From Haloprofundus halophilus (GTDB lineage Archaea; Halobacteriota; Halobacteria; Halobacteriales; Haloferacaceae): a DNA stretch of 64,000 nucleotides. Below the pieces are notes generated by a model, which worked only from the letters and a program-made list of their open reading frames with translations, did not search any database and was not told where the DNA came from. The stretch is from positions 1 through 64,000 of the forward strand of contig NZ_QQRR01000004.1 of assembly GCF_003439925.1 (NCBI RefSeq), given 5' to 3'. Positions 1-40,812 of the stretch are shown piece after piece. Each line of letters begins with the position of its first letter. Within the stretch, counting starts at the first letter, position 1. The translations under genes and the position numbers were made by a program.

Positions 1-220
1 GGCTATTAGCAGGTTGTCCCTCGTTTCGCGTGTTGGTCATATACTTACTATCGTAACCCTCTGGCTTATACTTTCTGACTAGCGACTCTGCGATGTCCCT
101 ATCTTAGGACTTAGACGAATTCAAAAGTGGATCTACTGGGGTCCGTGGTAGCTATCAATCACTATGCTCTCACCGGCCAGTGGATCTATAGAGTACTGAA
201 ATGACTGAGTATAGTCTTCC

Positions 221-2698
221 CTATGGCTGAACAGGAACCTCTAACAGTTGCTTCAGAAGACGGATTGCGAGCCGCTTGTTTAGCGTCCGATTCGCATTCC
301 CACATTGCGGCGAGTGAACGCACGATGGACACCCGTCTTCACAGGGACAGCTAGAGAGCATTTCCAACGTGCGCTCAAGCATTGTCTCCAGCTTCCCGAA
401 CGCTTCTCGAGTAAGTCCTACTCCACCTGGATGACCATCGTGGACGAAAATCGTGCTCCATCCAGTGTGTGGATGATACTCGGTCGAGAGCCCACCGACG
501 TCGCGACGAGCACAGAGAATCTCGAGTGGGAACAAAGAGATCAGTGCGTGCTCCAGAGCGTGAATACTCGCGAGAAATCCGTCCTCTTCCTCACTCGCAG
601 CTTTGATGTCCTGCTCGATCTGCGGCGGAATTGTGAAATAGAGCCCACGGGTGCGAATTGTCCGTTCAGGAAGCGGCTCGTCGAAAGCCCGCTCGACGCC
701 GTCCTCATCTGATGGGTGGTCATAGAGCATGTATCCCGTCACTTCTTCGGCGACGGTGAGATCCGCAAATCCAACAGAGACAGTCTCCTGTGAGGCGAGC
801 CCGCCCGTCTTGAGCTCCTCTTCGATAGTAATTCGTTTCTCTGTGAGTGGACGGGTATACCCCATCGTGTTCACTGACTTCAGGAGCACACGGTCAGCAT
901 CGAATTCTGCCTCCGTCACACGATACGACTCCTTTTGATGATGATAGATTGCACCGGGGTGTGCATCACGAAGCGCATCGCCAAACGGCAGTGAGGTAAG
1001 TGTCCTATCACGCAGTCGATCATAAAGTTCGATTTGCCGATCATCGATAGAGCGGATGTCCATCGTGTGTTGCGGGCTGTCCTCTCCCATGTACTTCCAC
1101 CGGGGACCGGTTCGAGAGCTAAATCGCTCTAGTTGGTCCGCGTCATCAAGAGACGCAACAGTCGCCGGATATTCAGTGCCGAAGTAGGTGTCGTCACTGG
1201 TGCGCAGGAACAGCTCTTGAGCCGCACAGCAGACGTGGTCATCTAGTATTTGGGTGTTTGCGGGGTTGACTGCTGCTTGTTCAGGGTCGCCGTCGAACAG
1301 GAGATCCGGATTCGCCATACAGTACTGGTCTAACGGATTCGGGCTTGCTACGAGGACAACGAGACTCGGATTTTCTCCACGTCCTGCCCGCCCAGCGCGC
1401 TGGAATGTGCTCATGCTTGTTCCTGGATGTCCGTCGAGAAGGACGACGTCGAGACTACCGACGTCGATGCCGAGTTCGAGTGCATTCGTACTCCAGACAC
1501 CTCGAATGGATCCATCGCGAAGCCCCGCCTCGATGGTGGTCCGACGTTCGTCCTGGAGTGCTGAGTGGTATGCAGTAACCTGGTCCGCTAGCTCGTGTTC
1601 ACCACGCTTTCGAAGCTTGCTATCGCACCAGTTTGCGTACTGCTCGGTTCCCTGTCTGGCCCGTGTGAAGACGAGCGTCTGATACCCTCGTTGAACAAGA
1701 TCGCAGAACAACCGCACCGTTTCTGGGTGATGGGAACGGCGCTCTCCGCCTATAATCTCGTTGTGGTGGGGTACTTCAACCGGGCTTGATGGTGGTGGAC
1801 TCGCTTCAGAACTGCCTTCTGCATTTGAAGGTGGTCCGTCGGCTGTCGCCGATTCTGTCTCCAGTTCCTCGTCTTCTCTTAGCGGTGGATTCCAGAATAC
1901 CCACTGGCGAGGGCCTGTCGCACTGGTATCGTCGTTGATTAGTGAGAATTGGCTGGGTTGCTGTCCAGTGACTGCTGCTGCGTGTTCGATTGGATTCCCG
2001 ATAGTTGCAGAGCAGCAGATGTACTGGGGAGTAGAATCGTAGTACTCTGCCAAACGCGAGAGACGACGGAAAATTAGTGAGACGTGGCTTCCGAATATCC
2101 CTCGGAACTCGTGTACTTCGTCGACGACGACCGTCTCGAGCTGTTGGAAGAGCCACTTCCAGTGTTTTGGTGATTTCGAATATGGGAGCAAACTTTTATG
2201 GATCATATCGGGGGTGGTCAAGAGAACATCTGGTTGGCGGGCCCAGACTTCGCGTTTCTCGGAGTCCGTCAGTAGTCCTGTATATGTCGCAACGTCGACG
2301 CTCCGACTCCCCTCAAGACCTGCAGCAATCTTGGAAATAGTATCTCTTTGATCGTTAATCAGAGCGTTCATCGGTGCGATATAGAGCGTCTTACCGTGGT
2401 GATCAAGAGCGCGCTCGAGTGCTGGCACCGTATAGGCGAGACTCTTGCCGCTAGCCGTCGGAGTAGCGAGTACGACATTGTCTCCGTCTCGGACGACTTC
2501 GATTGCGTCCGCTTGGTGTTGGAAGAGTTCGTTGATATCGTGACGAGAGAGTGCGCTCGCTAACCGGTGATCAAGATCGATTGGTGAGGTTTCGGCCGAG
2601 GCCCCTGGCGTTCGCTCCTGATGGGTGATTTGCCCCTCGTAGTAGGGCCGGTTTCTAAGCCACTCGATTGTCTTCTCCACGGACGATTCTCGATTCAC
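221..2698 (-). CDS. DEAD/DEAH-box helicase with DUF1998-type C-terminal domain (MrfA/YprA-like)
   Basis: Superfamily 2 helicase of 825 residues. Walker A ATPTASGKS is at about residues 78-86, the DEVH box at 193-196, and a motif VI QRAGRAGRGE lies in the second RecA lobe. The last 45 residues carry four closely spaced cysteines (CPC..GCPSC....QC), the metal-binding signature of DUF1998/MrfA-type helicases that act on damaged or branched DNA. It starts 33 nt after the stop of the JAB-E1 gene and is very probably the last gene of the ubiquitin-like operon. In bacteria DUF1998 helicases occur in DISARM and other defence islands, so a defence role is an inference from context. The length is normal for the family and the frame is intact. 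Confidence 0.85.
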   Translation of the reverse strand: MNRESSVEKTIEWLRNRPYYEGQITHQERTPGASAETSPIDLDHRLASALSRHDINELFQHQADAIEVVRDGDNVVLATPTASGKSLAYTVPALERALDHHGKTLYIAPMNALINDQRDTISKIAAGLEGSRSVDVATYTGLLTDSEKREVWARQPDVLLTTPDMIHKSLLPYSKSPKHWKWLFQQLETVVVDEVHEFRGIFGSHVSLIFRRLSRLAEYYDSTPQYICCSATIGNPIEHAAAVTGQQPSQFSLINDDTSATGPRQWVFWNPPLREDEELETESATADGPPSNAEGSSEASPPPSSPVEVPHHNEIIGGERRSHHPETVRLFCDLVQRGYQTLVFTRARQGTEQYANWCDSKLRKRGEHELADQVTAYHSALQDERRTTIEAGLRDGSIRGVWSTNALELGIDVGSLDVVLLDGHPGTSMSTFQRAGRAGRGENPSLVVLVASPNPLDQYCMANPDLLFDGDPEQAAVNPANTQILDDHVCCAAQELFLRTSDDTYFGTEYPATVASLDDADQLERFSSRTGPRWKYMGEDSPQHTMDIRSIDDRQIELYDRLRDRTLTSLPFGDALRDAHPGAIYHHQKESYRVTEAEFDADRVLLKSVNTMGYTRPLTEKRITIEEELKTGGLASQETVSVGFADLTVAEEVTGYMLYDHPSDEDGVERAFDEPLPERTIRTRGLYFTIPPQIEQDIKAASEEEDGFLASIHALEHALISLFPLEILCARRDVGGLSTEYHPHTGWSTIFVHDGHPGGVGLTREAFGKLETMLERTLEMLSSCPCEDGCPSCVHSPQCGNANRTLNKRLAIRLLKQLLEVPVQP

Positions 2699-2731
2699 GT
2701 GATCGTGTGTTGTGATTGTCTATTTTTCGCT

Positions 2732-4498
2732 CTACTGAGACGATTCCTTCGAGCTTCGGTTCACGAGACGAGCGACATACGCAGTAATGCGCTGAAAGAC
2801 GCCCCTCTCTGTTTGCTCTTCAGCATCCGGTTCGGCGGTCTCTCGTTGCTGATCGCCCTCTCTGTGTTCTTCAAGGACCTTCCGGAATGTCGGATCGGGC
2901 TCAGTCGGCAACTCGTAGTGGTCACCCCGTGCGAGTGCTTCTTTCCGGGCGCAGTCCTCCTTGCACGAGATCCGTTTTTCATTATTGCTATCTTCTTGCC
3001 AGTCAACCGTACCAAAGAGAGCATCGTACTCCTGACTGCCAACGAGAGCTTGTGAGGTGATTCCGACTGCAAGCGCTTGGAAACGAAGGGCCAAGAGTGA
3101 TGCCACGAGCCCGTTGTTCGTGGCCACGGAGGGCGCCCGCTCATCACCTTCGCCATCATCTGCCAGCTCTTCACCGTCATCCAGGCCTTGGACGTATCCC
3201 GCTCCACGGGCGGCATCTGGCTCTCTGTCGTGAATTACGCCCTCTTCCTCATCTCCGTGGAACCAGTGGCCAGTACACTCGAGACAGGGATGTCCTGGTC
3301 CCGTAGCGGAGACAAGCGATCCAGACCCGATGTCGAGTTCATCTTTTTCGTCATTCGGGATGAGCTCAGTACCCCCGTCGAGAACAGGAATGAGGTGGGC
3401 ATGTGAGACCTCGTCAAGGAGGAATCGAACCCAGTGCGTGTCAGCGGCGTTGATGATGACATCGCAGTCGAGCAGTTGTGGAAGGCAAGCGTGCTCCTCG
3501 TCTTCCTCGACTACGCTTCCGTACTCTGCCTGTGCGGCGAACCGCGGGTTCGTCGCCGACCGCTCCGCGACTTTCTTTGCCACCTCGACTTTCGGCTTAC
3601 CGACATCATCAGCTGTAGCGCCGTAAGACCGATTGAGGTTCGCACGTTCGAGGTAGTCAAAGTCGACGAAGACCGTTTCTTCAACGCCGAGACGCGCTAA
3701 CTGTTCGGCGAGGAGCGAACCGACGCCGCCGAGACCTACGACTCCAACGCGGAAGCCAGCAAGCGTCTGTTGACCGCGTTCCCCCCAGAGCTCTACCGTA
3801 GAATCCTGAGCTTCTGAGTCGATCGCTCCGCCCGTACCAGCCGGCCCAGCAGCATCCCTGATCGTTGGGAGCTTTTTGATTCGTTCACCTACAACTCGGA
3901 CCGCTGTTGCGTGCGTGAACTCACCTGTTTCCTCTCCGGTACAGCTTGCCCCTTCAGCCTTTGATGAGTTCGGGTAGACGAACTCATACGCCCGAACCGA
4001 CCATTCGCGTTGGCCAGTCTCGGCGTTAGGACGATCTGTCACGATACCCGCTGCGAGCGGGACCTCCGAGCCGAGATTCAGACCGATGTCGTACAGTTCT
4101 TCTTTGTCAGCTATTTTGTCGGGGCCAGACGGAGTCGCACCGCTTCCCGGATGGGTGTGGATGAAGATCAGACCCGCTCCTGCCACTTCTGCAGCCTCGT
4201 TGATTGCTCGCAGCGTATAGTCTGGGTGGAACTTTAGCTGGCCGTCGAAGTAGACGTCTCCCGGGCCCGGTTCGACGACCTTCTGTAACAGGTACGTCGT
4301 CCTTCTGTCTCCTGTGCTCGGGGTGATGATTCCGATCGCTCCTCGCTCGGGTAAACCATGCAGATGGTGACCTTCTGGCGGCTTCAGGAATCCATCAAGT
4401 GTCTCCCATGTCTCTTCACTGAGCGCAAACTGGAATTCTGCCGCCTGACTGGGTGGCGACTTCTCACCGGCTGCACGGGCACGGTACGCTCCTGTCAT
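2732..4498 (-). CDS. JAB/JAMM peptidase fused to E1-like (ThiF) adenylyltransferase
   Basis: Two enzymes in one 588-residue chain. The N-terminal JAB domain has Glu51 and the full zinc motif HTHPGSGATPSGPD (His114, His116, Ser124, Asp127), as in deubiquitinases that trim or release ubiquitin-like tails. The C-terminal E1/ThiF domain has the nucleotide loop GLGGVG (255-260), the DFDYLERANLNR strand (about 279-290) and a conserved Lys near 303. Two CxxC-type pairs (CLEC, then CKEDC near the end) probably bind structural zinc. The gene starts one nucleotide after the E2-like stop, so expression is coupled. Fused JAB-E1 proteins encoded with a Ubl and an E2-like protein are known from prokaryotic ubiquitin-like operons. 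The target of modification cannot be told from sequence. Confidence 0.88.
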   Translation of the reverse strand: MTGAYRARAAGEKSPPSQAAEFQFALSEETWETLDGFLKPPEGHHLHGLPERGAIGIITPSTGDRRTTYLLQKVVEPGPGDVYFDGQLKFHPDYTLRAINEAAEVAGAGLIFIHTHPGSGATPSGPDKIADKEELYDIGLNLGSEVPLAAGIVTDRPNAETGQREWSVRAYEFVYPNSSKAEGASCTGEETGEFTHATAVRVVGERIKKLPTIRDAAGPAGTGGAIDSEAQDSTVELWGERGQQTLAGFRVGVVGLGGVGSLLAEQLARLGVEETVFVDFDYLERANLNRSYGATADDVGKPKVEVAKKVAERSATNPRFAAQAEYGSVVEEDEEHACLPQLLDCDVIINAADTHWVRFLLDEVSHAHLIPVLDGGTELIPNDEKDELDIGSGSLVSATGPGHPCLECTGHWFHGDEEEGVIHDREPDAARGAGYVQGLDDGEELADDGEGDERAPSVATNNGLVASLLALRFQALAVGITSQALVGSQEYDALFGTVDWQEDSNNEKRISCKEDCARKEALARGDHYELPTEPDPTFRKVLEEHREGDQQRETAEPDAEEQTERGVFQRITAYVARLVNRSSKESSQ

Positions 4499-4499
4499 G

Positions 4500-4991
4500 C
4501 TATCCCGTTTCGAAGCCTGCGTCGATTACTTCGATTGCACGCACAGCGTGCTCCGGCTTTTCTGGCTTAAAATTCAGGTGTGACCACCGCAGGCTGAAGG
4601 TAATTCCCTGATCGACTCCCAAGTCGTTCTGAAGATACTTGTCTTGGTCACGACGGGCCGGATTGTTGTCTTCCCATCCCTCCCGATCGGCACGTTCGAC
4701 TGGCGGGACAGTCACAACCCAGTGAGGATCGCTGTTGACGAAATTCTCAGGGAGGAAAATGTACACCTCCGCTTGCTCTGGTGTGTAGGGGTGTTGATAC
4801 ACAGTGAAGTCGAACTCACCAAGCCAGACTGCGATTTCCCCGTCGTGTCTTCCAACCGGGATTGCTGGTGTGTGTCTTTCTCGGAGGGCCGAAAGCGCCT
4901 TCTGAAACGAAGGTTTCAGATTCTCTTCTGCGAGCCTGGCTGGCGGGGAAGGCCCATCCATCTCGCCCGTAGACGTTTCGCCTTCACTCAC
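4500..4991 (-). CDS. E2-fold protein, prokaryotic E2 family E type, cysteine-free
   Basis: A 163-residue protein whose core resembles prokaryotic E2 family E (Prok-E2_E): a YIFLPENF strand and loop, a central VTVPP segment, then a WSHLNFKPEKPEHAVRAIEV helix region. It contains no cysteine at all, so it cannot form the classical E2 thioester; the family is known to lack the canonical Cys. Its ATG overlaps the stop of the upstream Ubl gene by 4 nt, and its stop lies 1 nt before the JAB-E1 start, which shows a coupled operon. A role in handling the activated Ubl, or as a scaffold for E1, is inferred from gene order. Family assignment rests on motif pattern and context. Confidence 0.72.
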   Translation of the reverse strand: MSEGETSTGEMDGPSPPARLAEENLKPSFQKALSALRERHTPAIPVGRHDGEIAVWLGEFDFTVYQHPYTPEQAEVYIFLPENFVNSDPHWVVTVPPVERADREGWEDNNPARRDQDKYLQNDLGVDQGITFSLRWSHLNFKPEKPEHAVRAIEVIDAGFETG

Positions 4992-5260
4992 GACCGACCG
5001 CTCCCCTTCGGGACAATTCGGAAGAACTTCCGATTATCGTCACTGAGGTCGACGGTGTCGGAGTCCTCGAACTGAGTGTCCTTGGGCTTGTTCTTTCCTT
5101 CCAGAGCGTAGAGCCACTTCTGGTCGGTCTTATCCTCGTCTGTTCCTGCGTCGATCATAATCGTCTCTGCGGTCTGAACGGGGTCGTCGAACCGAATCGT
5201 CGTATTCCCGATGTGGATCGGGTACGTCCGGTTCTCCTTCCCTTGGTCTTCAGCTCCCAT
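4988..5260 (-). CDS. Ubiquitin-like protein (multi-ubiquitin/Ubl domain), single copy
   Basis: A 90-residue protein with a beta-grasp pattern: YPIHIGNTTIRFDDP, a helix, WLYALEGKN, then VDLSDDNRKFFRIVPKG. This matches the Multi_ubiq-type Ubl domains found beside E2-E and JAB-E1 genes. The tail is KGSGRS rather than a bare GG, so trimming by the JAB domain before or after activation is plausible but unproven. The start at 5260 is preferred over an upstream in-frame ATG at 5317 because a TATA box (5284-5293) sits about 28 nt upstream, as for haloarchaeal leaderless mRNAs. It is the first gene of the Ubl/E2/JAB-E1/helicase operon. It has no cysteine. Confidence 0.7.
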   Translation of the reverse strand: MGAEDQGKENRTYPIHIGNTTIRFDDPVQTAETIMIDAGTDEDKTDQKWLYALEGKNKPKDTQFEDSDTVDLSDDNRKFFRIVPKGSGRS

Positions 5261-5283
5261 ACCACTACATCTATTCTGGGATG

Positions 5284-5293
5284 ACTTATATCT
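5284..5293 (-). promoter_or_regulatory. TATA box of the ubiquitin-like operon
   Basis: On the minus strand AGATATAAGT lies centred about 28 nt before the ATG at 5260. This is the standard archaeal spacing for a leaderless transcript and it decides the Ubl start. Confidence 0.55.
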
Positions 5294-5501
5294 TGCCACT
5301 AGCAACATTCGAAACACGCTAAATCGGAAATTGCACCTCTACGTTGGGGGATGCTATGTGTGTAGATCAATCGGATTTGACTCCCCAGTGTACGAAATCC
5401 GCCAGCCCGAGGGCCAAACGACAATCTAAGGAGTGTATTCAGCAGTGTTGAGTCCCACGAGAAGCTCGCATCGCGTCCGCCGATCTATGCAAATTCCCTA
5501 G

Positions 5502-7649
5502 TTACCGCTTCAGAAGGCTACGAGCGCGTGAGAGGAATCCTTCTCGCGGATCGCCGGTAGTCGTCTCCCCAAGCCAGTCGAAGAACTCGTCCGGCGTCTT
5601 GATGATCAAATCGAGCCCCCGCTTTTCAATTCGAACCGTCATCGGAGGGTCGCGCTTGTACTCGTGGAGTTCGAAGTTCATCGACTCCGGGAAGGTTACC
5701 TGTAGAGTATCACTGTCTTTCGCAATTTCGACGTCCTCTCGGTCGATGAGGTTTCGCCAGCGCTCTCTGCCAGTGTCATAAGCTTGCTCAGCCGGTTCGG
5801 TTGGGAAGTAGTCTGGCAGTGGACGGTCGGCATGCTCATAGAGGTCCTGCATGGCCGCCCTCACTTCCCGAAGTGCGTCAGAGTCAGTTCCCAGCTCGAG
5901 ATCGCGGTTGAGATACTCGTACCCAAACCACTGGAAAATCGGGTTCTCCGTGTCGATTAGACGGTTTACTTCAGCTTCCCCCTGATGTGAGGTCATGAAA
6001 TTCACGTCGAATCGGAGGATCTTAGCACGGTTACGGAACCACTCTCCAGGGCGCTTATCGTTCGAGATGAAGGCGAACATCGGATAGGCCGTTTCGCCGG
6101 TCCATCCACTCCAATAGTTTCGAAGGGTATCCAGCGAGTTCACCTTCTGCTTGGTGATGTCGTCGACGACGACGGGGAACGACGTGTGTGCTGAACGCAG
6201 ATTCCGGACTTTTCGCTTCCCAATTTCGTCTGCGTCGACGGGTGCTTCGACACGGTTTCCACTGATCAGAGACAGGGCAAATCGACAGAATGTCCCTTTT
6301 CCTCCGTTTGACTCGCCAAAGACGTAGAGGTACGGGAGAGCCTTGTCGAGGTTAATCCCGTGCTCACGGTAGAACGCGGCCTGTCGATTGGCGAATGGGG
6401 CCCAGAAGAACCAGAATAGTGCTTCGTACATGTGGGCTTTGACCGCTGTTGGGTTGTTGGAATTCCCATAGTTGTCCACCGTCGCAAAGTAGTCCTCAAT
6501 CTCGGCCAGCGCTTCGTCGACACGCTCTGGATTAGACGGAGGCTGCGTGACACGATAGACCGTGCCGTCGTAATGGAACTTCAGCTCATCCTTGGACTCG
6601 TTCAGGTGCATTGTCGGGACATCGAACACCTGTTGCGCATACCGCTGGAACGCATCTGGGGTCGTCGTCAACGTATCATTCGACACTGTCGCATCGAAGT
6701 CAGTCATCTGCGACAACGTATCAACTGTCGACTCTTCGTACCCGCGTAGAGACAAGGTGATGCGGTCCTGTGGCGCATCTTCCAAATCTGGATCATTCTC
6801 GACAGATTCGTCTTCTGTATCGAGCTCTGGCTCCTCTGACTCCTGCTCTGCGACGGTATCCGCGCCTCCATCGAGCGCGAGATCCACCGCCTCAACTTCT
6901 GCATCGATATGGTCCGCGAGACGACCGTGAACCTCCCCTAGTTCGTCTTGTGTACCCACACGCCCTTCGGTGTACAGTTTGATTACTTCTTCTCGGTCAT
7001 CGTCCGAGAGTTCGAGTTGTTCGGAGAGATCCTCCAGGAAGGGTCCACCACTGTTGTACGAGTCCCGGTGATCGCGATAAAGCTCCTCAAACTCCCCGTA
7101 GAGCTCACTGTCCGTCTTCGTATCGTAGACGACGCCCATGTTCGTCTGATTCGACCATGCATTTCGAGAGAGATTCGGGGAGCCAACGATGACCTTCGCC
7201 GGTGTACCGTCATCGGTGTCCTCGGGTTCGGTTTCAACCGGAGCCTCTCCGCCAAGGGTCATCTGATCTTCATCGCCGTCCTCATCCGCTTCTTCTAAGA
7301 CAGAGTCGTTGTACTCGACGAGATACAGCTTAGAGTGAACTTCCTTGTTCTCACAGAGGTAGATTACGAGCTTGTCTTCACTCCTGAGCTGTTCAAGCCG
7401 ATCTGCGAGGTCGGGTTTGTCGATGAGGCGCTCGCGGTAGTCGGAGACGTCCCCGACGACCACCTCTAAGGACTCCAAGTCGTCGAGGTCTTCGAAGAGA
7501 TCCAGAATAAACTCGGGAGAGTCACAGTAGGTGACGACACGCATTCGTTTTGCGCCATCGAATACGTCGGAGAATGACCGCCAGCTCTTAAAAATCTCGA
7601 CGTGGCTGTGATCACTGCTTCCGGTATCGAGTGGAACGTCGAACTTCAT
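5502..7649 (-). CDS. PLD-like nuclease domain fused to P-loop (primase-helicase-like) ATPase
   Basis: A 715-residue fusion. Residues 1-200 form a phospholipase-D-like domain with His105-Ser-Lys107 and a downstream GSPNLSRNAWSN motif (about 156-167), the HKD arrangement used for phosphodiester chemistry; only one HKD is seen, so a dimer would be expected. A very acidic linker (about 260-295) follows. Residues 400-560 hold a P-loop GESNGGKGT (445-453) and a hydrophobic-acidic VVVDDI strand (493-498), reminiscent of superfamily 3 or phage primase-helicase ATPases. The C-terminus has no recognised domain. It is encoded upstream of the Ubl operon on the same strand, separated by about 240 bp with the Ubl promoter in the gap. 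PLD-like proteins occur in DISARM and Dpd systems, but this fusion is unfamiliar to me. Confidence 0.68.
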   Translation of the reverse strand: MKFDVPLDTGSSDHSHVEIFKSWRSFSDVFDGAKRMRVVTYCDSPEFILDLFEDLDDLESLEVVVGDVSDYRERLIDKPDLADRLEQLRSEDKLVIYLCENKEVHSKLYLVEYNDSVLEEADEDGDEDQMTLGGEAPVETEPEDTDDGTPAKVIVGSPNLSRNAWSNQTNMGVVYDTKTDSELYGEFEELYRDHRDSYNSGGPFLEDLSEQLELSDDDREEVIKLYTEGRVGTQDELGEVHGRLADHIDAEVEAVDLALDGGADTVAEQESEEPELDTEDESVENDPDLEDAPQDRITLSLRGYEESTVDTLSQMTDFDATVSNDTLTTTPDAFQRYAQQVFDVPTMHLNESKDELKFHYDGTVYRVTQPPSNPERVDEALAEIEDYFATVDNYGNSNNPTAVKAHMYEALFWFFWAPFANRQAAFYREHGINLDKALPYLYVFGESNGGKGTFCRFALSLISGNRVEAPVDADEIGKRKVRNLRSAHTSFPVVVDDITKQKVNSLDTLRNYWSGWTGETAYPMFAFISNDKRPGEWFRNRAKILRFDVNFMTSHQGEAEVNRLIDTENPIFQWFGYEYLNRDLELGTDSDALREVRAAMQDLYEHADRPLPDYFPTEPAEQAYDTGRERWRNLIDREDVEIAKDSDTLQVTFPESMNFELHEYKRDPPMTVRIEKRGLDLIIKTPDEFFDWLGETTTGDPREGFLSRARSLLKR

Positions 7650-7896
7650 TGGATTCGAAATTGGTCCTTCATCATTTAGGTGTAATCCGGCCGAGGTTCG
7701 TTAGGGCCACTTTCCGTACGACAATTTGTAGGTTCGATCCATCTAGCTGTAATCCCGGCTCGTTTGTCGGATGAATGCCGACTCGTGTGTTCATATGCCA
7801 TCCTCTTTGAGGCCACCAATACTCTGTCAGGAAATAAGCGTTCCGACTAGAATCATCCCAAACACAGTATTATGGAAATACTGCCATCAAAAAGTA

Positions 7897-7905
7897 GTTA
7901 TACTT
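7897..7905 (+). promoter_or_regulatory. TATA box of the OB/exonuclease gene
   Basis: GTTATACTT lies about 24 nt before the ATG at 7925 and fits an archaeal promoter for a leaderless mRNA. It lies in the 275-bp gap divergent from the PLD/ATPase gene. Confidence 0.45.
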
Positions 7906-7924
7906 CTAGTCTGGTGGGACTATT

Positions 7925-9052
7925 ATGGCAACAGACACCCTGACCGCGAGTAATCTCGTCGCGGCGGAACGAGATGGCGAATACGGTCTTACAGTCCCGT
8001 TGCGGATCGACAAGGTCGAACGAACCCCAGACCACGACTGGTGGGCGCAGCTTGTCCACTGTTCAGATGTGCTGGGGACGCACGTGAAGCTCACAGTTTT
8101 CGACGATGACGACTGCGATCTCGTTGACTACTCCTTTCAAGAAGGGACCTGGTATGAGTTCGACGACGTCAACCCAGACGTGTACCAGGGAACCATCGGT
8201 ATCAAAGCGAAGTGGGATCGGCAGGTCCGCCAGCTCTCTGGCCGCCCAGAGATGCCGCCTTCAGATACGACTGATATTGTGCGTCGACTCGGTGCAGCCG
8301 ATGCCATTGCAGCACTCGACATCGAGACGATTACGACTGTTTCTGAGCGAGAACTCGAACCACCGAACCCAGACCATCAGGAACTACTCTGTACCGGCGT
8401 TGGATACCGAGGCAGTCCGAGCGAGGAGATTGAGGCTGAGGTCCTCTTCCGTGAAGACGAGACGGCTTCTGCAGAACTCGACGCTATTGAGGCGGTTGTG
8501 AACTGGATCGATGCGAGGGATGTCGATGTTCTCATCACCTTCGGGGGCGCGTGGTTCGACCTCCCAGTCTTGGTGGGTCGTGCGGAACGGGCCGCTGCGG
8601 AAATCGGTGAGCCTGGACGAGCAGAGAATGTACGTACAGCACTCGAGTCGTACTACCATGCCGATCTTTCGTCGGCAAAGAATCGGGTGCTTGGGGAGGG
8701 TTCACTCGAGGATATGGCTGAACATGTTGGATCGCCCGCACCGAAGACGCTCTGGACGGATTACGAAACTGGGCTTGAACCGCAGACGTGGCGCGAGAGC
8801 CAGTGGGAGATCATGCGAGAGGAAGACCGCGACCCTCCGTCTGGCGATCTTGCGGATCCCACCGTATTCAACAGCGACGTTCCGTACTTCGGCGAGGCGT
8901 GGCTAACGGCTAGCGCAGCAGGAGAGGACAACCGAGCCTCGAACCTGTATGCGTGTCTCGAAACCTATACGCTCGCAGACATCCATCCCTTGTTCGCTAT
9001 AGCTGACGATGAGCGGTCGACCGGTCAACCGTCATTCCCGATGACCTACTAG
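7925..9052 (+). CDS. OB-fold plus PolB/DnaQ-type 3'-5' exonuclease
   Basis: A 375-residue protein. The first 110 residues look like an OB-type nucleic-acid-binding domain (alternating strands, WAQLVHCSD.., GTHVKLTVFDDD). Residues 125-355 form an RNase H-like exonuclease: ExoI ALDIET (Asp132, Glu134), ExoII FGGAWFDLP (Asp212), ExoIII YTLAD (Asp352), as in the proofreading domain of archaeal family B polymerases but without a polymerase. The product would trim 3' ends of DNA. It is the only plus-strand gene of the island, and its stop overlaps the stop of the convergent UvrD gene. The start is supported by a TATA box 24 nt upstream. Confidence 0.72.
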   Translation: MATDTLTASNLVAAERDGEYGLTVPLRIDKVERTPDHDWWAQLVHCSDVLGTHVKLTVFDDDDCDLVDYSFQEGTWYEFDDVNPDVYQGTIGIKAKWDRQVRQLSGRPEMPPSDTTDIVRRLGAADAIAALDIETITTVSERELEPPNPDHQELLCTGVGYRGSPSEEIEAEVLFREDETASAELDAIEAVVNWIDARDVDVLITFGGAWFDLPVLVGRAERAAAEIGEPGRAENVRTALESYYHADLSSAKNRVLGEGSLEDMAEHVGSPAPKTLWTDYETGLEPQTWRESQWEIMREEDRDPPSGDLADPTVFNSDVPYFGEAWLTASAAGEDNRASNLYACLETYTLADIHPLFAIADDERSTGQPSFPMTY

Positions 9053-12000
9053 CGGCCTCCGTCTTCTTGACGCCACTCTTCCCCGCAGGGGAGGGAACTG
9101 TGCTGGCACCACCGACAGTGCTCCCCAGTCTCGTACCCGCTGAACGATGTCTCCTTAATTCGATCCATCGTCGTCGACACCGCTGCTCGTACTGAATCTA
9201 GTTCACCCTCATCGAACGAACGGGCCTCGACTTTTGGGCCGATATCGCCGACATAGGCGTATCCCGCGCGGGTAATCGGTTCCTCGTAGAGGTCACGACA
9301 GGCGAGCAGGTACAGTGGCAGCTGCTTGTTCTCGTCAATGTCTCGGTGACGCTCGGTGGCTTTGTAGTCGATGACGACCAACTCACCGTCCGGGGTCCGA
9401 TAGACGGCGTCGATAAACCCGACGAGTTCGTGGCCATCCACTTCTAGCTGGAACTCTCGTTCAGCATCGACGATTTCCCAGCCGCTTAGATCGAGGTCGA
9501 AATACCGGTCGATGCATTCCTTCGCGACCGGTAATTCATCCTTGGCACGCCGTTGTCCGGCCAGCCGCTCACAAATAGCGTACCATTCTGCTCGCTCTGC
9601 TGCCTGTTCCTTCGCAGCGATTTCTGCGGTATCGTGAAACAGAAGCCCGACTATCCGCTGTGAGATACCGTCTCCGCCATAGCCGTTCTCACGGTAGTCG
9701 GAGAACCCGTTGACGACGTAGTCCAGGAAGTGCTGTCGGGGGCACTCCTCGTAGGCCTCAAGTGAGGTGTAACTGTGCTGGAGTGCCGGGTTTGGGGTCA
9801 TTGGCCCAGTCAGGGCGTCAATTGAAAATCGTCGGTTCTCAGGTTCTCTCTCGATTGAGCCTTCTATGAGCTTGTTTCCGAATGTGATCACGCGGTCTCG
9901 TCCGTCTGATGCTGAGAGGTTCTCAGAGCCGTACGTCACTTGTCCAGAGACGTCCCCAACTACTGTGCTCGCGAGAGAGGCTGTCCAATCAGCATGGTTC
10001 GATGGAAGACACTCCTGTAAATCGTTCCAGATCGGGAGGTGACCGTTACTTGGCCGCCAGGGAACGGATTCTGGAAGGATGCTCTCGACAGCATCGTGTA
10101 CGGGCCTTTCGTCGTCTGTGTCGTTTTCCTCTCTGCTTCCGTGGAGTACGAGTATCTCTTCGGCACGAGTGATCCCCACGTGAAGTATTCTGCGGGCCTC
10201 GTTGGCATCTTGAGCGACGAGATCTTTGTCGAACGCTGATTCTGGACCTTCAGACAGTGCTGACTCGAATGTATCGTAGGTTCGTGACCCTGGTTCCCAC
10301 TCGTCAGCGGTCAACCGGGGCATCAGAACCACGGGAAAGTCGAGTCCCTTACTCTTGTGAATGGTCATGACGTTGACCGCGTCGTCGGCCAGTTCTGGCT
10401 GACTTGTCGGTGCCGACCCGCTCTCCTCGAAGAGCGAGTCATAATGCCGCAGCGAATCGATGAATTGCGGCGTGAGTGGGGGCTGTACAGCGTCGTTTCC
10501 ATACTGGTCGATAATCTCGTCTAGCTGCGCCAGGTCACGACGCTCTTGCTCGCTGAGGTACCAGTCGATGTTGGTCAGGCGTTTGAGCTCCCGGTAAAGG
10601 TGGCTGAGGGAGGCTGTTTCACGTAGTTTGAGAAGGCGAGAAATGTGTTCTCGTACTTCCTGAATACGGTTGGGCTCATCGAATACTTCGAGGGGTTGGT
10701 TGCATATCCCAGCATATGCACCGTCATCGTGGCTATTGACACGACGCAGATCAGCATCGGTGAGACGGTAACGCATCGTCAGTACCCGGTTCCAGCTTAC
10801 GTCGTCTTCTTCGGGACGAGCCAGCGCCTTTAGATAGGCGACGACTGTCCCGACCCCGATTGATTCCGTAGAGAGGTCTCCCGCAACCTGATAGGGTATT
10901 CCTGCCTCGTCGAACCCTTCGAGAATTGGGGTTGCGTGGTCATTATTCCGAACGAGGAGTGCTATCTCCCCCGGATCGTACGCCCGGTCTAGTGCTTCTG
11001 CATCGCCACTCAGAAGATTTCGGGTGACAGTCACCAACTGTTCAGCTCGGTCGCCTTCGTCGTCGGCTTCCTCAACGACTGCGACCGTGTCTCCGTCGAA
11101 ATCGGGTTCGTCGACACGCGTGAGCGTTTTCGTACTCCGCCGATCCGCTAACCGATCTAGTGCTTCATTTGCGAGGTCGAGAATAGGCTGACGTGACCGG
11201 AAGTTCTGTTCTAGCGGTTCGTCTTCGAGATCGGGCCCGAAGACGTCGTCGAGTTCGTCAGTGATGTTCGCGACGTTCGCGCCGCGCCATTCGTAGATTG
11301 CTTGGTCGTCATCGCCTACGACGAATAGGCGATCCTCTGAGACAAGGGACGTAATGAGGTCGAACTGGAGACGATCAGTGTCCTGGAACTCGTCACAGAA
11401 AACGTAGTCCCATCGGTCGCCCAGACCCTCTCCGACGTCAGTCTCGAGCAGCTCTACTGTCTTGACCACGAGACCATCGAAGTCGAGCAGATTTCGCCGG
11501 TCGAGCTCTCGCTCGTATGCCTCATACCCTGTGTTCAAATCCAGGGCAGTTTTGCACTCGTCGAGAGCGTTTCGGAGGTAGTCTGTCAGTTCGAGCTTCA
11601 GGTCGTTTGGTATCCCACTCGGAGCACTACTGTACCCTCCAAGGAGATATTTCGGCAGCTTGTGTGCATCCTCGGGAAGCGACCGCTCACCAGCCTCATG
11701 CTCCTCAAACGCTACTTCGAGTGCGTCACAGAGGTCAACGAGTCGGTCGAGGAAGTCTTTGATGCTCGCCTCTAATCCTTCATCGCGGAGGGTATCCCGT
11801 TCTGCGACGAGGTCGGCTCGTGTATCCGGGATGCCGTCGAGAACGGTCGAAACTGAACGACCACCAAGATGGTCACTTGCAATCTCCTCAACACGGTCTG
11901 GCACAGCATCGAGCTCATAGACTTGTTCCGGTGACCCGAGATACTCCTCGATCTCTGCGGGCGAAATCCCACTTCGCTTCATCGACCCGATAAAGGAGAG

Positions 12001-12483
12001 GAGTTTCGATGCGACGCCGCTCACGTATGAATCTGGGCCGTAGACGTTGGGTTTGACGGCACGGTAGTCGATTTCGTCGAGGACATCGAGCACGATGACG
12101 TACTTTTCAGCATCCGTTGCGATCTCGAAGTCTGGATCTAATCCCGCATCATAGGCATAGTCCGTCAGTATCTCGTTGCAGATAGAGTGGTACGTATACG
12201 CGTCGACGTCATACCCTGCCGGTCCGAGTTTTGCGTTGAGTTTCTCACGCATCGAATCAGCGGCGTTGTTGGTGAAGGTCAACGCGAGAATCCGATCCGG
12301 AGAAACTCCGTGTTCGTCAATGAGGTTCTCGACTTTCCGGACCATCGTGAACGTCTTCCCGGTCCCCGCACCTGCGAGGACCCGCATGGGATACCGCTCC
12401 GACTCGATGATCGTCTGCTGCTGTGGCTTCGGATCCTCATCGTCCTCGATGGTTTGGAGCCAATCAGGCACGTCGTCGCTCAT
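9049..12483 (-). CDS. UvrD/AddA-like superfamily 1 helicase with C-terminal PD-(D/E)XK Fe-S nuclease domain
   Basis: About 1144 residues. Walker A AGAGTGKT (about 37-44), the Q-motif-like region before it, Walker B FCDEFQDTD (around 380), the DDDQAIYEWRGA motif and VMTIHKSKGLDFPVV make this a complete UvrD/RecB-type 3'-5' helicase. The C-terminal 250 residues carry a RecB-family nuclease core (GFIDAVYR....VVIDYKATE). They also carry cysteines flanking it (CPRQHF upstream, CRWCQHSSLPC at the end), the 4Fe-4S arrangement of Cas4/AddB nucleases. The start at 12483 overlaps the upstream stop by 4 nt (ATGA). With the next two genes it forms an AddAB-like end-resection machine. Confidence 0.88.
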   Translation of the reverse strand: MSDDVPDWLQTIEDDEDPKPQQQTIIESERYPMRVLAGAGTGKTFTMVRKVENLIDEHGVSPDRILALTFTNNAADSMREKLNAKLGPAGYDVDAYTYHSICNEILTDYAYDAGLDPDFEIATDAEKYVIVLDVLDEIDYRAVKPNVYGPDSYVSGVASKLLSFIGSMKRSGISPAEIEEYLGSPEQVYELDAVPDRVEEIASDHLGGRSVSTVLDGIPDTRADLVAERDTLRDEGLEASIKDFLDRLVDLCDALEVAFEEHEAGERSLPEDAHKLPKYLLGGYSSAPSGIPNDLKLELTDYLRNALDECKTALDLNTGYEAYERELDRRNLLDFDGLVVKTVELLETDVGEGLGDRWDYVFCDEFQDTDRLQFDLITSLVSEDRLFVVGDDDQAIYEWRGANVANITDELDDVFGPDLEDEPLEQNFRSRQPILDLANEALDRLADRRSTKTLTRVDEPDFDGDTVAVVEEADDEGDRAEQLVTVTRNLLSGDAEALDRAYDPGEIALLVRNNDHATPILEGFDEAGIPYQVAGDLSTESIGVGTVVAYLKALARPEEDDVSWNRVLTMRYRLTDADLRRVNSHDDGAYAGICNQPLEVFDEPNRIQEVREHISRLLKLRETASLSHLYRELKRLTNIDWYLSEQERRDLAQLDEIIDQYGNDAVQPPLTPQFIDSLRHYDSLFEESGSAPTSQPELADDAVNVMTIHKSKGLDFPVVLMPRLTADEWEPGSRTYDTFESALSEGPESAFDKDLVAQDANEARRILHVGITRAEEILVLHGSREENDTDDERPVHDAVESILPESVPWRPSNGHLPIWNDLQECLPSNHADWTASLASTVVGDVSGQVTYGSENLSASDGRDRVITFGNKLIEGSIEREPENRRFSIDALTGPMTPNPALQHSYTSLEAYEECPRQHFLDYVVNGFSDYRENGYGGDGISQRIVGLLFHDTAEIAAKEQAAERAEWYAICERLAGQRRAKDELPVAKECIDRYFDLDLSGWEIVDAEREFQLEVDGHELVGFIDAVYRTPDGELVVIDYKATERHRDIDENKQLPLYLLACRDLYEEPITRAGYAYVGDIGPKVEARSFDEGELDSVRAAVSTTMDRIKETSFSGYETGEHCRWCQHSSLPCGEEWRQEDGGR

Positions 12484-13388
12484 CGCTTCACCCCCTCTGC
12501 GAGAGATTCTGTGCACATCTCTCGGTACTTGCAGTCGGGACAGGCCTCATCGTGAATGAGTGGGAACGGATCTGGGTCGTGAGAACCGCTCGTGATCCCT
12601 TCGTGTGCACGTTGTAGGAGATTCCATATCGTGTCATGATACTCTTCGTAGATGTCCGTGGTATCGCGTGGATAGCCTCGTACAGAGATTTCATATCCGT
12701 CTGGTGTACTTTCGAACGACGTGTGATTCAGGAGACCGTAGAAACTGAATCGAATATTCATCCCGTCCTCGTAGAGGTCAGATTGTTTGACGCCCTCGAT
12801 GTATGTGGCCGCCTGGAATACGTTCTTGACTCTCTTCGGGTCGTGATCCGTTCCGTCTAGATGGTCCTCAAGGACGCTAGCAGTATTGGACGTAATTACG
12901 TCCCTGAGCTTCCGCTTGTAATCGATGACGTGGATCCCTTCGTCCGTCCGGAGAATATTATCGGCTCTCCCACGCAATCCGAGGCCATTCTCGACGCAAT
13001 CGAGCCACTTCTCCGTCGCAACCGATTGACGAGCGTGATTGATGCCGTGGCCACCATCAGGGTCAAAGAAGGTCTTGATTGCCTCTAGATTTTCGAGGCG
13101 CTGGTATTCCTGGTGAGCGTTTGACGCGTACTCGTCCGGAGAGATATGCTCTCTCCATTGCTCAGGGAATGCCTCTACTGCCCGATCGTAGATGAGATGG
13201 GCGTCATCTTCTGGGCTAGTTGCTTCGCAGACTACCTCGATCGTTCCGTGATAGGCCCGCCCCTGGTTCAGGTACAACCGTGTCTCCTCTGGGGCGTTGA
13301 CCTTCTGAACGTACTCATAATCGAACTTCCGCTGGCAGTCCGCGTAGGTCGCGAGACGCGACGGCGAGAGGAAGGTAACGTCAGTCAC
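12480..13388 (-). CDS. PD-(D/E)XK Fe-S nuclease (Cas4/AddB C-terminal-like)
   Basis: A RecB-like nuclease with an Fe-S cluster. The N-terminal LSPSRLATYADCQRKFDYEY supplies the first cysteine. The catalytic core is LRGRADNIL.....HVIDYKRKL (Asp and Glu/Asp-x-Lys), and the C-terminus has CPDCKYREMC. In bacteria this domain is the C-terminal part of AddB; here it is a separate polypeptide next to an AddB-like protein. The GTG at 13388 overlaps the upstream stop by 8 nt and is the likely start; an in-frame ATG at 13466 would add 26 residues read out of frame over the neighbour. The downstream UvrD gene overlaps its stop by 4 nt, so the three genes form one operon. Confidence 0.8.
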   Translation of the reverse strand: MTDVTFLSPSRLATYADCQRKFDYEYVQKVNAPEETRLYLNQGRAYHGTIEVVCEATSPEDDAHLIYDRAVEAFPEQWREHISPDEYASNAHQEYQRLENLEAIKTFFDPDGGHGINHARQSVATEKWLDCVENGLGLRGRADNILRTDEGIHVIDYKRKLRDVITSNTASVLEDHLDGTDHDPKRVKNVFQAATYIEGVKQSDLYEDGMNIRFSFYGLLNHTSFESTPDGYEISVRGYPRDTTDIYEEYHDTIWNLLQRAHEGITSGSHDPDPFPLIHDEACPDCKYREMCTESLAEGVKR

Positions 13389-15444
13389 GTCGAACCCCTC
13401 CGGCAGCAAATTCGATACGTGCTTGCAGTGCATCACGAAGCTGCTCGCCGCGGTTCCCGCTTTCACTGAGGAGGTGCTGAATCTCCGAAAGCTCGGCTTC
13501 GACCTCGTCGAGAGAGACCGTCACGTCTTGGCTGTGAGAGCGACGAATGTCAGCGAGAGCGTTGTCGACCCGAGAGAGCAGATATTCTTCCGCTCTTCGC
13601 TCGCTCCTGATCTCTGATTCTGTCGCCTCTTTCACCCACGGCAACTGCCGATACGCGTCCGTGAGAAACCGCGACGGCTGAGCACGTTCTTCCAGTGCGG
13701 TGTCTTTGTGATTATATAGACAGAAGTACAGGCGATCGCCAGCAGCAGTTGCTCCGATGGCGAGCCGCCGCCGTGCCTGCTCTGCATGGTATCGTTGGAA
13801 CGGGCGGCTTGACGCTGTCGAGGAGGTCGGGAAGGTGTTAGTGACATCTTCTGCGTCGACCTGTGTTACGCCCGGATAGTCCGGCATCTCTGAGAGGCGT
13901 TCTTGGGGGAACAACCGAGTCAGGGAAGGTGATCCAGGGTACTCTTCGTCGACGACGTCCAGCAAGAAGACTGCTCGGAAGGACCCGTTTTTGATCGCCT
14001 GTAAGTGATCGACTCGGACACCTCCGTCAAGTTCGGTCGAACTTGTTTGGTTCTGTTGAGGAGCATACTCGTGGGCGCGTTCAAGCATCGTCGCGAACGA
14101 CTCCCAGGTCGTTTCGATGAACGGCGTGTCTTCTACGAACTCCGCCATCGCGAACGCCCGCTGAACGTTCCCAAATTGGGCACGAACGTTCAGTGGAGAA
14201 GTCTCCTCAGCAATTCGAACCTTCATGTTTGACTCGGTCGCCCACCGTCGGAGCGGACTTGAGAGGCCCTCCATCTGTTCGATAGAGGCCAGAATCGATT
14301 CGTCTAAAACCGAGGCTTCCAGCAGCTCTGTTCGAGCGTCGTCATCATCGGCTGCCAGATAGCGAACAACCTGCAGTAACTCTCGAATAGCGGGATCATC
14401 GCCGAACCCTGTGACAGTCGTGGACTCTGTCGGAACCCCTGTTTGCTGGAAGGCACGAAGCGTCTCGATTACTGCGGAACCGCTCTGCTTCAGTGCGACG
14501 GCAAAATCCTCGTAATCCCAGTTCTCTCTATCTCGAAGCCGCTCGATTTCATCAGCGACTTTCTTGATCTGTTCGTCGGCGGTCTCTGTCGGGATGACGT
14601 TCACCTCCCCCGCCTCGGGATCTTCGTGAACGGTTTCAGTCGCCAGGTACGTACCCGTCGCAGCCGGTCGAGATGGGGGTGCTGTCCTTGCAGTAGACTC
14701 TGTCCTCGAAAATGAGACGTAGTCCGTAATTGGTCCTGGCTCGATCCATGAACGCCGAACACTCGCGTTCTCTTCTGCTACACATACGAGTTCCAACCCA
14801 TCCGCCACAGTAGCAAGATAGCGACGGTCAAGCGGCAGGAATTCCTCAAACTCGACGGCGAGGACTGCCTCGGCATCGACTACGTCGTCTCGTTCCTCGG
14901 TCTCCGACAGCGCCGCATTCGCCTCAGTGATTAGCTGTCCCCGTTCTAGGTGGTTATGCTCGTCGAGCCATTCGTGGAACGCTTCGATGAGCTCCGCAAC
15001 TTCAACTAGCTCTGGTGTCTTCTCGAAGGGAACATCCTGCCACGTGGCAGTTTCCATGAGCTGAGCGATATCGCCCATGAAGGAGGGTTGTTCGGCCGCA
15101 CGCTGAAAATACTCGCTCTCCCACTCTTGCTCTTCGAGGAACCGATGGACGAGCTCGCGACGCATTGCGTCTGAGAGAATAGCCCGGTCATCGGTCTGGT
15201 TCACGACGTCGGTCGCTTGCACGACCAAGGACGTTACGCGTGGGACAGCTGATCCGGGTGCTGTGTCTTTGAGTTCCTCCCGAAACGTCTCCATGCTCGT
15301 CGGCGATCCAGTGATGACGAGGACATCTTCTGGATTGTATGGCTTGAGCAACGCCAGATACTGCTCAATTACTGTTGAGCAGAGCTCTCCGGTGCCGAAT
15401 GGAACAGTAATGAGCGTCCCATCGAAGTGCCGAACCTCAGACAC
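13381..15444 (-). CDS. AddB-like (inactivated helicase-fold) protein
   Basis: A 687-residue protein with the layout of AddB/RexB: a degenerate helicase fold without a usable Walker A near the N-terminus, a conserved VFLLDVVDEEYPG segment (motif V-like, equivalent to the loop before the Cys-ligated nuclease of AddB), and RYHAEQARRRLAIGATAAGDRLYF, which matches motif VI of RecB/UvrD-like proteins. The nuclease domain normally fused to the C-terminus is encoded by the next gene. It is the first gene of the AddB/nuclease/UvrD operon and divergent from the ATPase gene at 15687. A role as recognition or clamp subunit of the end-processing complex is an inference from AddAB. Confidence 0.6.
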   Translation of the reverse strand: MSEVRHFDGTLITVPFGTGELCSTVIEQYLALLKPYNPEDVLVITGSPTSMETFREELKDTAPGSAVPRVTSLVVQATDVVNQTDDRAILSDAMRRELVHRFLEEQEWESEYFQRAAEQPSFMGDIAQLMETATWQDVPFEKTPELVEVAELIEAFHEWLDEHNHLERGQLITEANAALSETEERDDVVDAEAVLAVEFEEFLPLDRRYLATVADGLELVCVAEENASVRRSWIEPGPITDYVSFSRTESTARTAPPSRPAATGTYLATETVHEDPEAGEVNVIPTETADEQIKKVADEIERLRDRENWDYEDFAVALKQSGSAVIETLRAFQQTGVPTESTTVTGFGDDPAIRELLQVVRYLAADDDDARTELLEASVLDESILASIEQMEGLSSPLRRWATESNMKVRIAEETSPLNVRAQFGNVQRAFAMAEFVEDTPFIETTWESFATMLERAHEYAPQQNQTSSTELDGGVRVDHLQAIKNGSFRAVFLLDVVDEEYPGSPSLTRLFPQERLSEMPDYPGVTQVDAEDVTNTFPTSSTASSRPFQRYHAEQARRRLAIGATAAGDRLYFCLYNHKDTALEERAQPSRFLTDAYRQLPWVKEATESEIRSERRAEEYLLSRVDNALADIRRSHSQDVTVSLDEVEAELSEIQHLLSESGNRGEQLRDALQARIEFAAGGVRRD

Positions 15445-15653
15445 GCGTACCGCCCCGCGCGTTCGCCTGTTGTTCCTTGATGGATTGGCGGCTAGACCCG
15501 ATTCCCCGTGTCCGAGAGCCTAATGCTGATTTGTAAGGTAAGCCGAAAACGAATCTAGTCAAACGGGGACATATCATATTGAGGGTTCTCACAGTCCACC
15601 TACAAGAACGTTGGTGCTACGCTAAAGCTGAAACTTGCCTCATTACGATGCTA

Positions 15654-15664
15654 CATATTTATAC
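15654..15664 (+). promoter_or_regulatory. TATA box of AAA ATPase gene
   Basis: CATATTTATAC is centred 28 nt before the ATG at 15687. The spacing argues for that ATG over in-frame upstream ATGs at 15579 and 15648. Confidence 0.5.
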
Positions 15665-15686
15665 TGTACCAGGGTCAAGTTCCTGT

Positions 15687-39855: not shown

Positions 39856-39885
39856 TTCCAGTTTGGGGTGCTCGCGAGAGAATTC

Positions 39886-40812
39886 ATGGCGACAAGTGAC
39901 CACTCAGTGGTGTCGTTCGGCGACTCTGACACCCGACACGACGAGATGCACAGTACCATCGAAGAATGGGTTGACGAACTCGTCGACCACGTCAACGACG
40001 CACAAGCAAGTGAGGAGTTCCAGAAGTGGTTAGACGTCCAGAGTCGTTTCCACGACTATTCGCACCAAAACACGCTCCTCATCAAGCTCCAGTGTGCCGA
40101 GGCAACGAAGGTCGCAGGCTACAACACATGGCGGAACGATTTCGATCGGCACGTCCAGGAAGGCGAACAGGCCATCTGGATCTGGGCACCGATCATCACT
40201 AAGCGATGTCCCGAGTGTGAGAATTCGCCGAGCTACCACGAGAACATCGGTTGTGAGTACGACGAGACGCCGCCGGATGAATGGTCGAAAGGCCTCGTCG
40301 GGTTCAAACCAGCACCAGTCTTCGACGTATCCCAGACGGACGGAGAACCGCTTCCCGAACTGGAGACAGCAGCGTTTGGCGACGCCAACGACCTGGTGCC
40401 AGCACTCAAAGAGGCAGCTGATGAACTCGGTGTGACGGTACGCATCGTCGATGCCGACGACTGGGACCATGGCGACGCGAAAGGGGTCTGTAAGTATCGG
40501 AGCCTACACGACGTCCAGCCAGTCGTCGGAGCGAGAGCCCGATCGAACCACGCAGATCTCGCGGTCACGCTGATTCACGAGTACGCTCACGCGCTGCTCC
40601 ACTTCGATATCGACGATAAACCCGAACGGGCAAAACGCGAGGTCGAAGCAGAAGCCGTCGCGTACATCGTCGGTCGATATTTCGGACTCGACACGAGTGG
40701 TTCTGCGTTCTATCTCGCTACGTGGCAGGGTGATGATTCGGAGGTGATTCAAGAGCGCCTCGGTCGAATCAGCTCCACCGCTCAGGAGATCATTGGGTTA
40801 CTTGTGGAGTGA
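39886..40812 (+). CDS. ArdC-like antirestriction protein with metallopeptidase domain
   Basis: About 308 residues from the ATG at 39886. The N-terminal ssDNA-binding ArdC domain has WVDELVDHVNDAQ, FHDYSHQNTLLIKLQ, ATKVAGYNTWRNDF and QAIWIWAPI. A loop with CPEC follows, and the C-terminal zinc peptidase has LIHEYAHALLHF (HExxH) and EVEAEAVAYIVGRYFGLD, the typical third ligand of ImmA/ArdC-like proteins. ArdC proteins protect incoming plasmid DNA during conjugation. This fits a transferable element and would counter the host's restriction systems. A GTG at 39868 is an alternative start. Confidence 0.8.
   Translation: MATSDHSVVSFGDSDTRHDEMHSTIEEWVDELVDHVNDAQASEEFQKWLDVQSRFHDYSHQNTLLIKLQCAEATKVAGYNTWRNDFDRHVQEGEQAIWIWAPIITKRCPECENSPSYHENIGCEYDETPPDEWSKGLVGFKPAPVFDVSQTDGEPLPELETAAFGDANDLVPALKEAADELGVTVRIVDADDWDHGDAKGVCKYRSLHDVQPVVGARARSNHADLAVTLIHEYAHALLHFDIDDKPERAKREVEAEAVAYIVGRYFGLDTSGSAFYLATWQGDDSEVIQERLGRISSTAQEIIGLLVE

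Follow-up and report, generated by a model that had tools for sequence, protein, structure and literature searches.

A putative Bub-type ubiquitin-like cassette within an AgaP-centred DNA-processing locus of a haloarchaeal plasmid

Introduction

In haloarchaea, the nuclease AgaP is paired with a long-A Argonaute, and members of this Argonaute-AgaP family restrict both plasmids and virus (PMC11442185). On its own AgaP is toxic, an effect that Argonaute suppresses and that, for the Natrinema pellirubrum protein, requires residues H105, K107, G157, S158 and N160 (Cheng et al. 2024, PMC11442185). The literature that we searched holds no description of a larger Argonaute-AgaP-AddB-Cas4-AddA unit, nor of AddAB or HerA beside a haloarchaeal Argonaute.

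Bub-type cassettes for ubiquitin-like (Ubl) proteins have so far been catalogued in bacteria, their targets are not known, and their mechanism is said to be of an oxyester/serine kind. No archaeal E2-like protein turned up in a survey of 2010 (PMC2948915). MrfAB, for its part, repairs mitomycin damage in Bacillus subtilis (PMC11194089). Here we describe a locus of Haloprofundus halophilus, analysed from a 64,000-nucleotide stretch of DNA (‘the window’), in which homologues of all three lie side by side, and where related plasmids with and without the cassette allow a test of whether archaeal immunity directed at DNA is controlled by protein tagging.

Results

The replicon and its gene row

Contig C4 has 71,975 bases, of which the window takes up the first 64 kb; judged by locus and genus, Haloprofundus halobius is its nearest named relative. 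An exact 127-base terminal repeat (window 1-127 = C4:71849-71975) indicates that C4 is circular, at 71,848 bases (71.8 kb), and circularity along with genes for Orc1/Cdc6 and ParA marks it as a plasmid. The original prediction had described a row of nine genes at 221-15444; all nine are present as long open frames, with Pfam, fold and profile support (Table 1), the exonuclease being the sole member on the opposite strand. Its supposed end at 221 does not stand, since on a circular replicon the row runs on over the contig ends, still on the same strand, from MrfA1 into MrfB, MrfA2, SbcD and an SbcC/Rad50-like ATPase. A divergent AAA/DUF4143 ATPase borders the Argonaute/AddB-AgaP loci of relatives and is found in 25 of the fetched loci, for which genes were called by a simple script, so that some small ones may be absent or miscalled.

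Gene order is retained in related plasmids, with dN/dS of 0.02-0.27 across all genes of the locus; together these argue that the row is more than chance, and, by the substitution ratios, purifying selection maintains every gene. Elsewhere on the same plasmid we note an anti-restriction-like ArdC-N/M78 peptidase protein (window 39868-40812) and a PD-(D/E)XK nuclease gene (window 41046-42098). Beyond the DUF4143 ATPase, related plasmids carry a DNA methyltransferase as a restriction-like neighbour (L272:1-2911, L273:1-2908, L274:1-4922), beside which L274 (1-4922) has a DEAD/DEAH helicase as well.

Table 1. Features of the locus and its plasmid (window positions unless C4 is given)
Feature	Position	Strand	Support or remark
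MrfA1, MrfA/YprA-type DEAD helicase with MZB 4-Cys domain and Hrq1-type winged helix	221-2698	-	PF00270, Helicase_C, PF09369 4e-23, PF22982
Plug-in module Ubl-E2-JAB-E1	2723-5496 (2.77 kb)	-	absent from otherwise homologous loci
JAB-E1 fusion, BubCD-like	2732-4498	-	ThiF PF00899 7.7e-33, weak Prok-JAB
E2/RWD-fold protein, BubB/Prok-E2_E-like	4500-4991	-	AF2, Foldseek, hhalign
Ubl, BubA/Multi_ubiq-like beta-grasp	4988-5317	-	AF2 model, Foldseek
AgaP-type nuclease, PLD fused to P-loop ATPase domain	5502-7649	-	weak PLDc_2
OB + DEDDy 3'-5' exonuclease	7925-9052	+	weak PolB exonuclease PF03104 E 0.0025
AddA, UvrD helicase with C-terminal PD-(D/E)XK nuclease	9049-12516	-	PF00580 3.9e-61, PF12705 (PDDEXK_1) 2.9e-27
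Cas4/AddB-nuclease-like PD-(D/E)XK protein	12480-13466	-	PF12705 2.7e-21
AddB-like helicase-fold subunit without nuclease domain	13381-15444	-	UvrD_C 2e-4, ADDB_N 0.017
AAA/DUF4143 ATPase, divergent	15579-17393	+	PF13635 and AAA_14
Orc1/Cdc6 gene	44580-46079		
ParA gene	53227-54138		
SbcC/Rad50-like ATPase	C4 62791-66264	-	C-terminal third inside window (62791-64000)
SbcD	C4 66261-67592	-	
MrfA2, second MrfA-type helicase	C4 67789-70356	-	
MrfB	C4 70359-71816	-	HhH + RNase_H_2

A Bub-type cassette

Neither the Ubl nor the E2-fold protein of the window has a significant direct match in Pfam, and PADLOC and NCBIfam likewise returned nothing for them; the same scans of the remaining genes otherwise gave generic helicase and E1-E2 matches only. 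The Ubl, whose probable start at ~5260 would make it 90 residues long (about 4988-5260; RefSeq equivalents begin at 90 codons), ends in KGSGRS and is modelled by AF2 as a confident beta-grasp (pLDDT 81), for which the best nine PDB matches found by Foldseek are all bacterial multi-ubiquitin or BubA (8u38, 9cd2, 9ea8_B; prob 1.00). Two of its relatives, L044 and L055, match PF14452 above cut-off. The E2-fold protein contains no cysteine at all, and its moderate model (pLDDT 61; a helix and four-strand meander) has BubB as top match (9eae_C), a weak fold match with a probability of 0.89 yet an E of 0.097. By profile, it aligns at 94% (hhalign) to a bacterial E2 set that includes L060, which matches PF14462 (Prok-E2_E) above cut-off; the archaeal E2 profile found no match among PDB sequences.

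The JAB-E1 fusion carries the JAB motif residues E51, H114xH116 and S124xxD127, and in its E1 domain GxGGxGS at 255-261 and Cys405/408/512/516. By profile, its best PDB relative is BubCD of Citrobacter (E 4e-28); the alignment takes in the JAB motif as well as the E1 domain, and the two have in common the serine of an SVxTxN segment. We take Ser457 of the fusion to occupy the position of the catalytic cysteine of ThiF/UbaA-type enzymes. These likenesses, drawn from sequence and from models, point to an archaeal Bub-type cassette (Iyer class 6e) of BubA, BubB and BubCD. PF20137 (DUF6527) is missing across the whole genome; this family is presumably BubE, the metal-binding partner Y, present in many operons but not all. 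Such a partner would not be obligatory, as the 2006 description gives two or three genes besides E1 (PMC1779556).

AgaP and its changing partners

The original prediction tied the PLD protein to defence, and this connection is borne out by its family, one of demonstrated anti-plasmid and antiviral function (PMC11442185). The window protein is 81% identical to AgaP of N. pellirubrum (L185, on a 275,821-base plasmid) and is thus its orthologue, with a split HxK(105/107)...GSxN(156-159) motif, a P-loop GESNGGKGT at 445, and all of the published catalytic residues (here H105, K107, G156, S157 and N159); against PDB sequences it found no match. There is no Piwi or Argonaute gene anywhere in the genome.

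AgaP-like genes occur in 94 of 394 haloarchaeal genomes. Among 78 AgaP loci, Argonaute lies within 9 kb in 24, AddB-Cas4-AddA in 19 and Mre11/Rad50/HerA genes (housekeeping and accessory copies pooled) in ~20; most of these neighbours share the strand of AgaP, and many abut it. The order Argonaute > AgaP > AddB > Cas4-like > AddA is widespread in haloarchaea. It is seen with the divergent DUF4143 ATPase and without Ubl in L191-L193 and L200-L210 (e.g. L191:3708-14963). AgaP-like genes of several separate clades also abut Mre11-Rad50-NurA-HerA (L199, L230, L232, L244, L246, L249-L251, L255). In a quick, midpoint-rooted AgaP tree, the loci with exonuclease and AddB/Cas4-like/AddA (AddABC) form one clade, sister to the Argonaute clade, with Ubl in both; this and the locus survey place AddAB with AgaP/Argonaute, and not with Ubl. 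Within the AgaP clade, loci with the exonuclease lack an Argonaute, and those with Argonaute lack an intact exonuclease. Beside the N. pellirubrum Argonaute, on the opposite strand, is a 95-residue remnant (L185:6332-6619) ~50% identical to the OB-exonuclease of the window.

This exonuclease carries the three DEDDy motifs (LDIET 131-135, D212, Y348xxxD352), and its N-terminal OB domain resembles that of AgaP-linked Argonautes (hhalign 91%). In the Cas4-like protein, C44...C309xxC312x5C318 is a probable Fe-S site. The AddB-like gene always stands ahead of the Cas4-like gene and AddA in the loci compared, and the three constitute a separate, widespread end-resection module.

A fixed association of this module with the Ubl cassette, as first predicted, did not hold: close forms of both are found together in just 4 of the 394 haloarchaeal genomes and are mostly apart, AddB being present in 139 (~45 of the same close family) and a full JAB-E1 in at least 16. 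We therefore rejected a fixed Ubl-AddAB system, AddAB being commoner beside Argonaute-AgaP without any Ubl; what remains of that proposal is a Ubl cassette inside a co-oriented DNA-processing and defence locus.

The Mrf helicases

By its domains, the DUF1998 helicase, MrfA1, is MrfA-like; against TIGR03817 it falls below cut-off. DISARM was rejected (just 49.7 bits to DrmA, and neither DrmB nor a methyltransferase among the genes of the row), as was Dpd. Of the 7-deazaguanine biosynthesis genes that characterise BRIGADE, none was found among that part of the plasmid proteins which was scanned. MrfB-type homologues are present in 154 of 394 haloarchaea.

The cassette as a plug-in

In close relatives without the cassette, AgaP is directly followed by MrfA1. 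Compared with two of these (G380 and G045), DNA homology of the window stops at 5497, just past the AgaP stop codon, and resumes at 2722, before MrfA1, with a spacer of 2-3 nt at the empty site; G182 and G241 are concordant. The cassette is, then, an optional plug-in between AgaP and MrfA1. Eight plasmids, spanning several families, carry it (the window, Haloprofundus halobius, G113, Halorussus salilacus, Salinirubellus salinus, Haloarcula litorea, Haloplanus sp. GX21 and Natribaculum longum), and in all eight it is followed by Mrf genes. The JAB-E1 copies are 92-100% identical, too similar to be treated as separate events, and this near-identity perhaps reflects a single founding insertion that plasmids and recombination have since distributed. 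The gap upstream of Ubl is 185-242 bp, so the Ubl may have its own promoter.

Two of the eight are informative as to what travels together. Halorussus has a truncated AgaP, and its AddABC set is ~35 kb off on the same plasmid, with Ubl-E2-JABE1-MrfA1-MrfB-MrfA2 intact. In Salinirubellus (G307), an Argonaute and a YdjM-like gene stand in place of AddABC and the exonuclease, and MrfA1 is missing; dS relative to the window is 2.1 for AgaP, as against 0.15-0.48 for Ubl, E2, JAB-E1, MrfB and MrfA2, a contrast which shows that the Ubl-to-MrfA2 block moved as a whole, joining an AgaP of the Argonaute type. Across the eight plasmids, Ubl-Mrf adjacency within the AgaP locus holds and a Ubl-AddAB pairing is not general; the steady neighbours of the cassette are AgaP and, most constant of all, MrfB-MrfA2, just beyond the window.

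Of the haloarchaeal genomes found to have a full JAB-E1, 5 carry the window form (93-100%) and 11 a distant one, these last having other neighbours and no AgaP, Mrf or AddAB. A JAB-E1 profile search of genome contigs, mostly generic ThiF among the matches listed, was the source of bacterial and Thermoplasmata relatives; viral contigs gave one irrelevant JAB-E1 match and no AgaP match, and no viral carriage was seen. In several distant cassettes (L041, L042, L043, L047, L049, L050, L051) the Ubl domain bears a long N-terminal coiled coil, and L049-L051 have HTQ in place of HTH in the JAB motif, so that their JAB may be inactive. The order Ubl-E2-JAB-E1 also occurs in a Thermoplasmata genome (L052:9245-11509), where the Ubl ends GGGGFS.

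Discussion

Drawing these findings together, we propose that the locus is a plasmid-borne mosaic that confers immunity to foreign DNA, with AgaP at its centre and an accessory protein-tagging module, a proposal whose chances we judge to be about even. AgaP would cut foreign DNA; Argonaute, with which AgaP works in the closest relatives, would have been lost, its place being taken by the OB-DEDDy exonuclease and an AddB-Cas4-AddA end-resection machine, and these, with the Mrf proteins, could open and digest the DNA, MrfA-MrfB-MrfA2 (helicase and 3'-5' exonuclease) and SbcDC being positioned downstream. Into this, between AgaP and the Mrf genes, a Bub-type cassette has been plugged. We envisage that its JAB domain shortens the Ubl at the tail (KGSG|RS or similar), that the E1 domain adenylates the Ubl, and that the Cys-less E2-fold protein helps to pass it to a target, from which the JAB might remove it again. 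The target would most likely be one of the DNA-processing proteins encoded nearby; we prefer MrfA/MrfB to AddAB on account of their joint exchange with the cassette, and tagging may set when the nuclease-helicase machine is active. Against the proposal as a whole stand loci that function, or in any case survive, with no cassette (G182, G380, G045). A tighter version, in which the OB-exonuclease and AddABC replace Argonaute and an Argonaute-free AgaP immune system has its DNA degradation switched on or off by Ubl tagging of AgaP or of the Mrf helicase-exonuclease, we think unlikely.

The main rival is that these are independent modules in one plasmid defence island, a self-sufficient cassette having landed between AgaP and MrfA1 and now hitchhiking, and this we hold to be a serious, if lesser, possibility. 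It would sit well with the 11 distant haloarchaeal cassettes, which keep other company, with relatives found alone on many bacterial plasmids, with the near-identity of the copies and with a 242-bp leader that allows for an own promoter. It accounts less readily for the exact placement between two co-oriented genes, for a cassette that is intact in eight plasmids of several families, or for its having moved jointly with MrfB-MrfA2 onto a different AgaP type. The other rival is one of repair instead of defence, whereby MrfAB, SbcDC and AddABC mend damaged or broken plasmid DNA under regulation by tagging. The mitomycin repair by MrfAB in B. subtilis (PMC11194089), the wide distribution of MrfB homologues, the standing of SbcDC and AddAB as repair enzymes, and the Orc1/Cdc6 and ParA genes of a maintained replicon all speak for it; we nonetheless rate it as distinctly improbable, because AgaP is a toxic immune nuclease in the relative tested (PMC11442185), the same loci in relatives hold Argonaute and methyltransferase/helicase pairs, and the distribution is patchy and plasmid-borne. 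That the E1 and JAB genes have a sulfur-carrier or cofactor role (MoaD/ThiS-like), unrelated to protein tagging, is suggested by a ThiF-like E1 domain and is very improbable indeed: the combination of a JAB fusion, an E2-fold partner and a Ubl of Multi_ubiq type fits Bub, not MoaD/ThiS, the best structural relative is BubCD, and the genome has a separate ThiF-like gene (C1:1286585).

More broadly, AgaP is a hub with repeated swaps of partner, amongst them Argonaute, AddABC, HerA-NurA-Mre11-Rad50 and MrfAB, which suggests that AgaP immunity is broader than the Argonaute pair described so far. As the cassette lies in a locus with named candidate targets, and near-isogenic plasmids exist with and without it, the targets of modification are directly testable; were the tighter version above to be true, archaea would have an immune nuclease against DNA that is controlled by a ubiquitin-like tag.

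Comparison with known systems

With AddAB/RecBCD, the locus shares an AddA UvrD helicase-nuclease and an AddB-like partner, and differs in that the nuclease part of AddB is a separate Cas4-like gene (12480-13466), and that it is archaeal and often beside Argonaute-AgaP. With MrfAB (PMC11194089) and the YprA family (PMC12458937) it has in common the MZB/DUF1998 helicases and an HhH-RNaseH exonuclease adjoining the second helicase; here, however, there are two helicases, plasmid-borne and in a nuclease locus. Within the YprA family, they resemble the repair branch and not DISARM, Dpd or BRIGADE, the last of which (PMC12458937) likewise occurs in halophilic archaea and pairs two YprA helicases with a nearby nuclease of the PLD kind, whereas the helicases of the window are short and MrfA-like.

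Bub, or class 6e (Iyer, Burroughs and Aravind 2006, PMC1779556; Citrobacter 9ea4, 9ea8, 9eae), has the same gene order Ubl-E2-JAB-E1, and common to both are a Multi_ubiq-type Ubl, a Cys-less E2/RWD-fold protein, an N-terminal JAB fused to E1 and the serine in SVxTxN. The window version is archaeal, with a single Ubl domain and a Gly-containing tail, KGSGRS, where the fetched bacterial relatives end DDNS; its genome is without DUF6527, and the cassette is embedded in a DNA-processing row. Finally, the haloarchaeal APAP system (long-A Argonaute with AgaP, PMC11442185) has the same split HxK/GSxN motif in an 81% identical orthologue and, in N. pellirubrum, the same divergent AAA/DUF4143 flank; the window genome has, instead of an adjacent long-A Argonaute, the OB-exonuclease and AddABC, with Ubl and Mrf genes downstream, whilst the Salinirubellus cassette locus (G307) does have an Argonaute.
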